This document shows, piece by piece, positions 38,459 to 43,226 of a DNA stretch of 64,000 bases (positions are counted from its first letter, which is position 1; the number at the start of each line of letters is the position of its first letter). Source of the DNA: Dialister pneumosintes (GTDB taxonomy: Bacteria > Bacillota > Negativicutes > Veillonellales > Dialisteraceae); assembly GCF_001717505.1 (NCBI RefSeq), contig NZ_CP017037.1, forward strand, positions 1,197,001 to 1,261,000, written 5' to 3'. Below the pieces are notes generated by a model that did no database searches, was not told the origin of the DNA, and worked only from the letters and a program-made list of their open reading frames with translations. The position numbers and the translations under genes are program-made.

Positions 38459-39571
38459 TTAAGTTTGTATAGAATTATTTTGCGTGGCTACCACGTGGCT
38501 ACCACGAGGAGCCATTTGCATATCAATCCCATATGGAAGAGAATCAACTGCAGCTATTAGTTGTGGGATAGTTTTATGTGTGTAAATGTCTTTTGTTACG
38601 TTATCAGTACTGGAATGCCCTACAATTTGTTTTTGTATCTTTTCCGATATCCCGTAATTATCGCATAACGTTATGAAAGTGTGTCTAGCATCATGTGGTA
38701 TATAAGCTCGATTAAAATATTTTTCGAAACTTTCCCTGGCATAAAACATTCCTTTTAACTTGTAAATACCTCTTGAGAGGTTAGGCACAATTAAAAATTT
38801 GGATTTTTTAAATAATGCTATGTTATAAAAATATTTCACAAAAGGAAGAATGCATTTGGCGATAGGTATAATTCTGTTTTTCCCTGCAGAAGTCTTTGAA
38901 CCACCTATCATAATCCGTTTAGTGAGATCTACATTTTTTACCTCCATTTTAGATAATTCATTTGACCGCATGCCTGTATAAGTATAAATAAGTATAATTT
39001 TAACGATATCTTGATGGGTGTCTCTCCAAAGCTGCTGCATTACTTCTGTAGTAAAAGGTTTATGAAGTGTTGACTTTTTTAATTGCTGAACTTTAACAAA
39101 TTTTGAATAATTTTTTATAGCTAAATCGTTAGCTAAGGCATAGTCATAAATCATGTGATAAGTCGTTAGCATTGCACGCTGAACGGCAGCGGAATCGGTA
39201 GAGTCGATAAGAGCTTGCAGGTGAATAGTTTTTGTTTCTTGCGGGGTAAGAGACTGAATTTTAGAAGAATGATTTTTCCATGCGTTTAGCGTGGCAAGAC
39301 TGATAGGTTTATTCAGCCTTTCTCGTTCAGCAAGTACACGTTCCCATATTTGTTTCCAGGTTATCTTTTTAATGACTCTGTCAGTAGGTGAGGCGTTGTA
39401 TAAATCAAGCGCAGATTGCGCTTCTTTATGAGTTCTAAAACTTCCGATGATTTTTTTCTTACGAATACCCTTATCATTCATCCCTAGATTGATGACTGCT
39501 ACCCACGGTTTACGTCTACGAGTGTTATCGCTGCGTTTATATATAGATCCAGTTCCGTTTGCTCTGCGCAT
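38459..39571 (-). CDS. Tyrosine-type phage integrase
   Basis: 370 residues. An N-terminal AP2-like arm domain (KRSDNTRRRKPWVAVINLG), a SAM-like core-binding domain (residues about 75-165), and the catalytic domain with R in YTYTGMRSNELSKM, HxxR in PHDARHTFITLCDN, H in IVGHSSTDN and the nucleophile Y in KDIYTHKT. All catalytic residues are present. AAGGAGG lies 10 bp ahead of the ATG. It is at the left edge of the remnant, transcribed outward, and its last six codons lie across the attL core. Confidence 0.92.
   Translation of the reverse strand: MRRANGTGSIYKRSDNTRRRKPWVAVINLGMNDKGIRKKKIIGSFRTHKEAQSALDLYNASPTDRVIKKITWKQIWERVLAERERLNKPISLATLNAWKNHSSKIQSLTPQETKTIHLQALIDSTDSAAVQRAMLTTYHMIYDYALANDLAIKNYSKFVKVQQLKKSTLHKPFTTEVMQQLWRDTHQDIVKIILIYTYTGMRSNELSKMEVKNVDLTKRIMIGGSKTSAGKNRIIPIAKCILPFVKYFYNIALFKKSKFLIVPNLSRGIYKLKGMFYARESFEKYFNRAYIPHDARHTFITLCDNYGISEKIQKQIVGHSSTDNVTKDIYTHKTIPQLIAAVDSLPYGIDMQMAPRGSHVVATQNNSIQT
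38479..38493. repeat. Left attachment-site core (attL)
   Basis: TTTGCGTGGCTACCA, identical to 43212-43226, lying inside the last codons of the integrase gene. The 11-bp part CGTGGCTACCA is repeated again in tandem at 38494-38504. Confidence 0.75.
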
Positions 39572-39575
39572 AAAA

Positions 39576-39604
39576 AATCGACCTCCTTAAAAAATAGGTC
39601 GATT
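39576..39604. repeat. Inverted repeat around the integrase ribosome site
   Basis: AATCGACCT (39576-39584) and AGGTCGATT (39596-39604), perfect 9-bp arms. In the integrase mRNA this hairpin would hold the AAGGAGG site partly in the stem. The left arm sequence recurs at 39624 at the start of the divergent short RNA. Confidence 0.6.
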
Positions 39605-39608
39605 GTGA

Positions 39609-39614
39609 TATAAT
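39609..39614 (+). promoter_or_regulatory. -10 box of divergent short RNA 1
   Basis: TATAAT in the context ATTGTGATATAATAAAA. No good -35 is visible at 17 bp. The same context recurs at 39692-39705. Confidence 0.5.
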
Positions 39615-39619
39615 AAAAC

Positions 39620-39690
39620 TATAAATCGACCTCGTGGTTGGGGTTTTGATTTTCCCGTTACTCTGTTGGCGCAGGGTAGCGGGTTTTTTT
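39620..39690 (+). ncRNA. Putative short RNA 1, antisense to the integrase ribosome site
   Basis: A transcript from the TATAAT at 39609 would begin near 39620, contain AAATCGACCTC (39623-39633), and end at a 12-bp terminator stem, CCCGTTACTCTG pairing with CAGGGTAGCGGG (39654-39683), followed by TTTTTTT. The AAATCGACCTC segment is the exact complement of GAGGTCGATTT, which overlaps the integrase ribosome site. No open frame of note. Confidence 0.45.
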
Positions 39691-39697
39691 ATTGTGC

Positions 39698-39703
39698 TAT
39701 AAT
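39698..39703 (+). promoter_or_regulatory. -10 box of divergent short RNA 2
   Basis: TATAAT in the context ATTGTGCTATAATATGA, closely matching the promoter of short RNA 1. Confidence 0.5.
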
Positions 39704-39709
39704 ATGAGT

Positions 39710-39785
39710 AGTGAATCGTCTACAGCGTGTAATGGCGTTGGACACTGAGCCGCTACTTAAATAGTAGTGGCTCTTTTATTTTGTG
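39710..39785 (+). ncRNA. Putative short RNA 2
   Basis: Starts after TATAAT at 39698 and ends at a terminator with a 10-bp stem AGCCGCTACT/AGTAGTGGCT (39748-39772, one G-T pair) and CTTTTATTTT. About 70 nt. Its body differs from short RNA 1, so the similarity is in promoter and layout only. Confidence 0.4.
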
Positions 39786-39843: not shown

Positions 39844-40464
39844 TTAAAGTATTTGTCCTGAAGAGTTGTCAGATACAAAACTACGAGATAGTTGTAAAAT
39901 AAAATCGTTAGAATTGGCAATATCTTTAGGGACATCGAAATATATTTTGCCTGTTTTTTAAATTCCGGGATTAATTAAGTCTAAGAAGATGTTTTCATTG
40001 ATATTTATTGTTAGGGTAACAGGGGAATAAGTTGCATCTCCCAGTTTTAACCTAAAAGCACTATTATCTAATCTCATTGCTTCTTTAGCTATATTCTTGT
40101 ATTGAATAGTTAAAACAACAAAAGAACCATCAGCTTTTGTAAATAAATATCCACTTGAATCTGATACTCTATCGGTCACTTGTTTATCCAATACTGCAAT
40201 TTCAAAATTTTTAGCATTGTACAATTCTCCCATAGTATAAATCTTCTTAGCTTGTTGCGTTGTATCTGCTTTTGCACTTGTAGTTTGCGGCGCACTTTCT
40301 TTAGGCGCGATTACCCCTGCAGCGAAAAAGAGTAATAACGCCATTCCGAATACTTTTAATCTAGTAGGCTTCTTTAAAAACGGAGCCGCTTTAGTTGGTT
40401 TTATTAAACCAAAAATAAGCCATACAATTGATGCAATCGCTAAAATTCCAGATAATACTTCCAT
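39844..40464 (-). pseudogene. DUF4352-like membrane protein broken by a nonsense codon
   Basis: From ATG at 40464 (GGAGAATTAAT ahead) the frame encodes two N-terminal hydrophobic segments, a linker and a DUF4352-like domain ending NIFLDLINPGI, then TAA at 39958-39960. The same frame goes on without interruption for 37 codons, KTGKIYFDVPKDIANSNDF and onward to SSGQIL and a stop at 39844. FDVP after a KTGK turn is the normal C-terminal strand of these domains, so the TAA looks like a GAA or AAA mutated to stop. The shortened 169-residue product may still be made. It belongs to the left arm of the remnant. Confidence 0.7.
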
Positions 40465-40496
40465 ATTAATTCTCCTTACTCTAAATAAAATAATAT

Positions 40497-40757
40497 TTAA
40501 ACACAATAAAACTGAAATTTAGATAAATTTACATTTTGTTTATTATGAGAATGTGCTAACTTCTCAATTAAGTTAGCATTATAATGTGTATAAAAATCAT
40601 CTCTTTCTATATGTAATAATTCGTGTAATATAGCAATTCTTTGCAATTCAATAGAAATAGTATTATTAATGATGATAGTGTAACTACCATCTTGATTATC
40701 ATGCGTTAATGCTTTAATTTTATGCGGTAATAATTGATAGGTTAATACAATACTCAT
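40497..40757 (-). CDS. Short ImmA/IrrE-like metallopeptidase
   Basis: 86 residues. IAILHELLHIERDDFYTHYN contains the HExxH zinc site and the downstream D typical of ImmA/IrrE proteins, which cleave phage repressors. It is much shorter than usual (about 130-180), with only the catalytic helix region. It overlaps the repressor remnant by 3 bp (ATGA), the normal repressor-protease order in phage immunity regions. Confidence 0.65.
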   Translation of the reverse strand: MSIVLTYQLLPHKIKALTHDNQDGSYTIIINNTISIELQRIAILHELLHIERDDFYTHYNANLIEKLAHSHNKQNVNLSKFQFYCV

Positions 40758-41077
40758 TTATTTTCTTTTGCCTTTAAACCATTAATTAAATTTAAAACAA
40801 TATCTATATCTTCTTTTGATAAGTCTCTTGATGCATCAAATAATATACGTCCTTCCGGATTGGTTCGTAGTTGTTCTGCTATTTCAGCAACTTCTTTGTC
40901 ATGATAATAACCATTGTTAATAGAGGTTTTATCTTCTATTAAATCTGATTTTTCTATATTAAAGTAATTAGCCAGTATTTCAATTTTATCTATACGTGGA
41001 TATGATTTTGCTCTAACCCACTCTGAAAAAGTTGTTTCTTTAAAATTTAAAATTTTACAAACATCTTTTTGAGTAAC
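40754..41077 (-). pseudogene. Phage repressor (XRE/CI-type) lacking its N-terminus
   Basis: An open minus-strand frame of 107 codons with no start. It begins VTQKDVCKILNFKETTFSEW, which is helix 2 and recognition helix 3 of an XRE HTH, continues VRAKSYPRIDKIEILANYFN, and has a C-terminal part SRDLSKEDIDIVLNLINGLK seen in many Firmicute phage repressors. TAA lies directly before the valine (41078-41080). The first helix and start codon, about 15-20 codons, are missing and replaced by phage late-gene sequence on the other strand, so this is a deletion junction. Confidence 0.75.
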
Positions 41078-42533: not shown

Positions 42534-42567
42534 AAAAGACCTACTGTTTAAACACGGTAGGTCTTTT
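42534..42567 (+). terminator. Terminator, copy 1 of a 34-bp repeat
   Basis: Stem AAAAGACCTAC...GTAGGTCTTTT with loop TGTTTAAACACG; identical over 34 bp to 43129-43162. Here the stem extends to CC/GG on both sides. Confidence 0.85.
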
Positions 42568-43128: not shown

Positions 43129-43162
43129 AAAAGACCTACTGTTTAAACACGGTAGGTCTTTT
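43129..43162 (+). terminator. Terminator, copy 2 of a 34-bp repeat
   Basis: Identical over 34 bp to 42534-42567; directly follows the toxin stop and is followed by further T residues. Confidence 0.85.
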
Positions 43163-43211: not shown

Positions 43212-43226
43212 TTTGCGTGGCTACCA
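43212..43226. repeat. Right attachment-site core (attR)
   Basis: TTTGCGTGGCTACCA, identical to attL at 38479-38493; one copy only, without the tandem 11-mer seen at attL. Marks the right end of the integrated element, 150 bp before the third Sel1 gene. Confidence 0.75.

Follow-up and report, generated by a model that had tools for sequence, protein, structure and literature searches.

Immediately upstream of a phage-type integrase gene in Dialister pneumosintes, and divergent from it, lies a candidate gene for a short terminated RNA, which raises the question of how such an RNA might influence synthesis of the enzyme. The original prediction for this locus proposed that the RNA pairs directly with the Shine-Dalgarno (SD) sequence of the integrase mRNA. 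Positions given below are those of the window, which is the whole 64,000-nucleotide stretch of DNA that was analysed. The integrase gene (38459-39571, minus strand), which would be the target of the switch, encodes a tyrosine recombinase of 370 amino acids that is recognized by Pfam and PHROG profiles, namely Phage_integrase (PF00589; 1.2e-11, 45.2 bits versus a cut-off of 27.1), Arm-DNA-bind_4, and the integrase family phrog_1 (1e-38).

A predicted antisense RNA and a leader built from three matching segments

The sequence AAATCGACCTC is present in exact 11-nt copies at 39575-39585 and 39623-39633, precisely as the original prediction had it, and its 9-nt core recurs as an inverted copy at 39596-39604. 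The TATAAT element proposed to drive the divergent RNA is also located correctly and corresponds to an extended -10 promoter, TGATATAAT (39606-39614, plus strand), with TTAAAA at 39587 serving as a -35-like hexamer. The RNA predicted from this promoter is ~70 nt long (39621-39690, plus strand) and is predicted to form two hairpins (-30.3 kcal/mol, z -5.4, with 0 of 200 shuffles folding as well), which agrees with the short terminated transcript proposed earlier. Its 5′ hairpin (39623-39652, plus strand) holds the third copy, AAATCGACCTC at 39623-39633, and is followed by an intrinsic terminator (39654-39690, plus strand) with a TTGGCG loop, a stem of 13 pairs when G-U pairs are counted (39654-39683), and a T7 tract. 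The 11-nt copy is thus enclosed in the RNA's own 5′ hairpin and is not a free tail, a feature that the original prediction had missed. By its sequence, the unit has the features of a short untranslated counter-transcribed RNA with its own promoter and terminator.

At the gathering score, Rfam searches returned only tRNAs from the window, and neither the regulatory locus in the window nor 16 related loci gave a match above threshold. A second promoter and terminator unit (39698-39779, plus strand) lies directly 3′ of the antisense RNA and carries TGCTATAAT and the stem GAGCCGCTACT/AGTAGTGGCTC; its predicted RNA has a z of -4.8 and it is without an inverted-repeat partner.

The integrase leader, on the minus strand, includes the same repeats. 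The SD sequence AAGGAGG (39582-39588, minus strand) occupies the 3′ side of a leader hairpin, where the first repeat copy (39575-39585) is located, and a U6 run (39572-39577, minus strand) between this stem and the AUG renders the stem terminator-like. The second copy is an anti-SD arm, AATCGACCT (39596-39604, minus strand), identified from the hairpin and from its covariation with the SD across related loci; its partner may be either the SD arm or a third segment further upstream. As originally predicted, the leader can hide its SD in a hairpin of 9 bp, AATCGACCT/AGGTCGATT (39596-39604 with 39576-39584; -10.3 kcal/mol, z -3.1). The third segment, GAGGTCGATTT (39623-39633, minus strand), would be present on a putative read-through integrase mRNA as a pre-emptor that could pair with the anti-SD arm and thereby free the SD. 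On such a long mRNA, the pre-emptor/anti-SD and anti-SD/SD pairings are mutually exclusive. In the window copy, the pre-emptor hairpin is predicted at -11.9 kcal/mol versus -10.3 kcal/mol for the SD hairpin. An equilibrium calculation for this copy leaves SD exposure unchanged (0.30 versus 0.30), so that an effect there would have to depend on the order of folding or on the U-run.

The element surrounding the integrase gene

Upstream of the integrase, in the same direction, lies a DUF4352 gene (39958-40506, minus strand; PF11611, 1.6e-8) that would belong to the presumed read-through operon. It is accompanied by a gene for a small protein (40497-40757, minus strand; phrog_20936, 1e-19) with weak similarity to ImmA-like metallo-proteases (phrog_87, 2.5e-4), and by a repressor-like HTH frame (40754-41077, minus strand) that was assigned by eye from its translation and is 5′-truncated. 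This gene order is that of a lysogeny module, and the element itself looks decayed. Because the HTH frame is without an intact 5′ end and start, the operon promoter of the element may be lost.

Candidate att repeats, TTTGCGTGGCTACCA, occur in the 3′ end of the integrase gene (38479-38504) and 4.7 kb away (43212-43226), and an additional tandem CGTGGCTACCA is present beside TTTGCGTGGCTACCA in the integrase 3′ end. Identical copies of a 34-bp palindrome, AAAAGACCTACTGTTTAAACACGGTAGGTCTTTT (42534-42567 and 43129-43162), flank a DUF6290/ParE toxin-antitoxin pair and are probably terminators.

The arrangement recurs upstream of unrelated recombinases

Relatives of the integrase were first picked by protein similarity alone, and their upstream regions were then compared. 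Thirteen other integrases found in this manner share the promoter, RNA, terminator and leader hairpin, always in the order SD arm, loop, anti-SD arm, opposite-strand extended -10, two-hairpin RNA and terminator; we refer to this arrangement as the module. The letters of the arms vary among relatives (GGTCGATT, GGCTGAT, GAGCGTG, GGTGG, GGTCAATCGG), and the copies within a module change in concert. At two loci, L011 and L025, the antisense RNA has three hairpins.

A covariance model (R1) whose base pairs were limited to the SD and terminator stems gave 72 matches in 55 of the 381 genomes of the class that were searched. The gene that starts at the 5′ end of this model is outside it. Adjacent ORFs encode recombinases in 57 of 65 cases, 37 of them tyrosine recombinases (Phage_integrase) and 20 serine recombinases (Resolvase), and thus unrelated enzymes have the device in common; the other 8 of the 65 are not recombinases. 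Matches with no usable ORF at the expected start (the second match of L080, and L093, L096, L104, L110 and L116) were excluded from the statistics.

A phylum search with a refined model (R2) added further genomes outside the class, the hosts identified by a pattern scan include Anaerovibrio lipolyticus, Selenomonas, Veillonella seminalis, Megasphaera massiliensis, Dorea and Lachnospiraceae, and viral contigs also carry the module. Among the new ORFs, which served as a hold-out, 27 of 29 encode recombinases (21 Phage_integrase and 6 Resolvase); part of the hold-out was gathered using a model that had been trained on the first set, and one hold-out module (L137) is very similar to a first-set module (L075). 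Model E-values are rough, and these counts describe sampled genomes rather than a census. Judged from the recurrence of its sequence features, the module does not occur by chance and is conserved across the class and further.

The antisense promoter has the TGn extension in 47 of 55 modules and matches TATAAT at no fewer than five of six positions in 52 of 55, the box being part of the search model, and the antisense unit folds better on the RNA strand than on the opposite strand in all 55. Because the -10, SD stem, U-run and terminator are included in the search model, their frequencies are partly ascertained. The pre-emptor pairing, the association with recombinases and the swapped-leader effect described below are largely free of this bias.

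The window DNA, when searched directly in 12 genomes of the family, found only the window itself; scans of viral contigs and genome contigs with the window integrase peptide gave no confirmed match, and named phages contained no close copy of the module. A weaker module, with a larger leader-SD distance, precedes the integrase of Ruminococcus phage RG-TP1 (L147, PQ571303.1; 2396-2529). It resides within the annotated 5′ part of gp42 (integrase), and the true start of this gene therefore probably lies further downstream than annotated. Four TTAGTCTA-like repeats located before a module-less integrase (L048) suggest a different, DNA-level control, and at two other loci (L010 and L019) the integrase strand carries terminated RNA-like units of a different kind immediately ahead of the SD, which may represent another type of attenuator.

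A long transcript probably carries the recombinase

Attenuation of the pT181/pSK41 type, discussed below, would require a target mRNA that begins upstream of the antisense-covered region. The next upstream gene is co-directional with the recombinase in 47 of the 52 cases having a gene call, and in 30 the co-directional gene ends 60 nt or less from the terminator of the RNA. Among the products of these genes are ImmA-type peptidases, HTH and S24 repressors, Abi_2 and Fic. Between the arms, a -10 element that reads in the mRNA direction is present in 60% of modules versus 49% of shuffles, which is no clear enrichment. Since the upstream genes are mostly co-directional, the recombinase probably forms part of a long mRNA, and the RNA would then be antisense to that mRNA. 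These observations support a putative read-through mRNA.

The pre-emptor pairing is the best conserved

We compared each possible pairing between cognate segments with the same pairing between segments of different modules, using 55 nonredundant modules and then a hold-out of 29. The pairing of the pre-emptor with the anti-SD arm, which is absent from the search model, has the strongest cognate preference (-18.1 versus -10.8 kcal/mol, z -15.0; hold-out z -14.4), followed by that of the anti-SD arm with the SD (-14.7 versus -9.5 kcal/mol, z -13.5; hold-out z -10.1). RNA/SD pairing, the action originally proposed, is only weakly specific (-12.5 versus -10.1 kcal/mol, z -6.9), and in the hold-out its z of -3.6 does not surpass the mismatch controls (-2.2 and -3.5; 1.1 and 0.3 for the 55 modules). 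The pre-emptor/anti-SD pairing is the stronger of the two in 50 of 55 modules. Where the models disagree, 25 three-way columns favor pre-emptor/anti-SD and 7 favor RNA/SD, and conservation extends to 235 inverted-repeat columns outside the SD helix. Moreover, several relatives (L105, L106, L112 and L114, as well as L079 and L052) keep the promoter and terminator but have lost the complementarity between RNA and SD, a situation that the original prediction had itself named as refuting it; in L105 and L106, the common stretch CATGATTCG falls outside the SD complement.

The strand on which the pairing operates was evaluated from mRNA-strand G-U wobbles versus A-C mismatches, which occur at 29:14 in the main set and 12:9 in the hold-out; this excess, weaker in the hold-out, is suggestive only. 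The preference of the leader folds for the mRNA strand is only slight (33 of 55 modules). Since a perfect repeat can pair on either strand, a mirror-strand energy control of the pre-emptor helix carries no information. As read from these comparisons, the conserved device on the integrase mRNA strand consists of three parts, which are the pre-emptor, the anti-SD arm, and the SD in its stem.

When the antisense-covered region is masked in the fold calculation, SD exposure is lowered in 50% of cognate versus 10% of swapped leaders in the main set, and in 72% versus 3% in the hold-out, where mean exposure falls from 0.36 to 0.14. A U-run of at least four within the 12 nt before the AUG is found in 84% of modules, 56% of the hold-out and 12% of module-less recombinases. 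Thus, the predicted stem at the ribosome-binding site (RBS) resembles an intrinsic terminator, with the caveat that these U-run frequencies are partly ascertained by the model.

Proposed mechanism and alternatives

Our computational reading is that the locus is probably an antisense-RNA attenuator for a site-specific recombinase, similar to those of pT181 and pSK41. A long mRNA from an upstream start, presumably that of a repressor-type (lysogeny) operon, would carry the recombinase, and on this mRNA the pre-emptor, anti-SD arm and SD arm would compete. If the antisense RNA is absent, the anti-SD arm would be held by the pre-emptor, leaving the SD free. If the antisense RNA is made, from the extended -10 located between the pre-emptor and the leader, it would be expected to bind the pre-emptor region. 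The anti-SD arm so released would close the SD in a stem, with the U-run at the AUG, and initiation would be blocked. The SD stem and U-run may also terminate transcription, and we infer that control could be divided between the translational and transcriptional levels. The presumed outcome is that integrase is kept low in the integrated state, the sign being repression. At the level of sequence, the analysis shows the parts themselves, that they are conserved, and that the two pairings exclude each other.

We also lean, with less assurance, toward a broader proposal. The module would be a widespread and portable attenuator of the antisense type that serves site-specific recombinases in particular and has passed between tyrosine and serine integrases across hosts of the Bacillota type. 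It would silence integrase after transcription has started, while the lysogeny operon is being read, and would so control excision whatever the type of enzyme. Integrase silencing in lysogens is poorly known beyond classical lambda-like systems. If the proposal is correct, a single RNA device keeps enzymes of two unrelated superfamilies quiet in many bacteria of the gut and mouth, and excision of prophages or other elements in such hosts becomes directly testable by single-base changes. The modules would also constitute a naturally occurring family of antisense attenuators in which three short matching segments determine specificity.

The original prediction is partly supported by these findings. 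The divergent terminated RNA, the SD-hiding leader hairpin and a switch on integrase expression at the RNA level are supported by sequence, and in the window the exact 11-nt complementarity does yield a strong predicted duplex between the RNA and the integrase SD (-18.0 kcal/mol). It is nonetheless unlikely that the RNA acts by pairing its anti-SD copy with the SD of a short integrase mRNA, in competition with the leader hairpin or in aid of it. The weak cognate specificity seen in the main set does not rise above controls in the hold-out, the match is lost in relatives that keep the module, the pairing is usually weaker than that of pre-emptor with anti-SD arm, and the copy in the RNA is buried in a hairpin. 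A residual RNA-SD signal is expected in any case because both arms match the anti-SD arm. Activation by the antisense RNA, which would open an inhibitory leader structure as Asr9 of ISPpu9 does, seems very unlikely. The general layout is similar, with an antisense RNA and a 5′-UTR that hides the RBS (PMC8450116), but in the masking computation SD exposure was lowered in 27 cases and raised in 2; because the RNA covers the pre-emptor and not the SD hairpin, the computed effect is a loss of SD exposure.

The repeats might instead function as DNA. Perfect inverted repeats flank the antisense promoter, and some arm sequences are common to modules of unrelated recombinases (GGTCAATCG, for example, precedes both tyrosine and serine recombinases), as might be expected of an operator that binds a repressor or the recombinase, with RNA pairing as a by-product. 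We regard such an operator as quite unlikely, given that 39 of 46 arms are distinct, that the spacing of the arms varies between 24 and 51 bp without helical phasing, and that the main set has a wobble excess on the mRNA strand. An operator would also leave unexplained both the complementarity of the arm to the SD and the loss of the SD effect in swapped leaders. That the repeats are simply an attachment site or integrase binding sites, with no regulator involved, is scarcely credible. They do adjoin the integrase gene, but integrated elements that have genes on either side still contain an intact module, the candidate att repeats of the element (TTTGCGTGGCTACCA at 38479 and 43212) are elsewhere, and tyrosine and serine recombinases, whose sites differ in kind, have the module in common.

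Relationship to known antisense systems

The closest parallel to the proposed attenuator is RNAI/repC of pT181, which controls copy number of a Staphylococcus plasmid by means of an antisense RNA of 87 nt, together with a pre-emptor and a terminator-like RBS stem-loop (PMC5703833). There, too, a small RNA is complementary to the leader, the pre-emptor pairs with the 5′ arm of the RBS stem, and the RNA makes the RBS stem form (PMC5703833). The predicted U-run after the SD stem recalls stem-loop IV of pT181. In the features that can be judged from sequence, the target excepted, the module agrees with the pT181/pSK41 type: besides the predicted counter-transcribed RNA and the terminator-like RBS stem, it has a stem-loop at the start codon that encloses the RBS and, in the antisense-covered region, a pre-emptor that matches the 5′ arm of this stem-loop. 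The target in pT181 is a plasmid replication initiator, whereas here a tyrosine or serine recombinase would be targeted, encoded last in an apparent lysogeny operon on a putative long mRNA. Since the neighboring genes encode site-specific recombinases and not a plasmid replication initiator, we describe the module as one that works like the pT181/pSK41 type, not as a member of it. RNAI/rep of pSK41 likewise involves an antisense RNA of ~83 nt with two stem-loops and a proposed induced stem that hides the RBS, but its complementarity lies ~100 nt upstream of the initiation region and it serves plasmid replication, in staphylococcal RepA_N plasmids (PMC5703833).

The open-licence literature provided plasmid and insertion sequence parallels but no such antisense system for an integrase, which is weak evidence of absence given that most subscription journals are outside its scope, and the available text of PMC11109978 does not describe the module. 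An antisense attenuator acting on integrases is therefore without a description in the open-licence literature searched, although the kind itself is known from pT181 and pSK41.

More distant parallels exist among other mobile elements. The P22 sar RNA (RF00262) is a phage antisense RNA of similar length. The sar model scored 27.5 and 25.8 bits against the RNAs of two modules (L029 and L023; E 0.25-0.74) versus a gathering score of 43, a sub-threshold match that we treat as a chance similarity of two hairpins. The known target of sar RNA is an antirepressor. In the case of ISPpu9 Asr9, IS200, IS10 and IS30, a mobile-element enzyme is held at a low level through structure in its leader and through an antisense RNA; the targets are transposases, no pre-emptor arrangement is described in the available part of the source, and Asr9 activates (PMC8450116). 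The divergent type I antitoxin OrzO, according to the available text of PMC3919570, is encoded by a short RNA gene that adjoins its target and represses by base pairing, with the difference that this target, ZorO, is a toxin.
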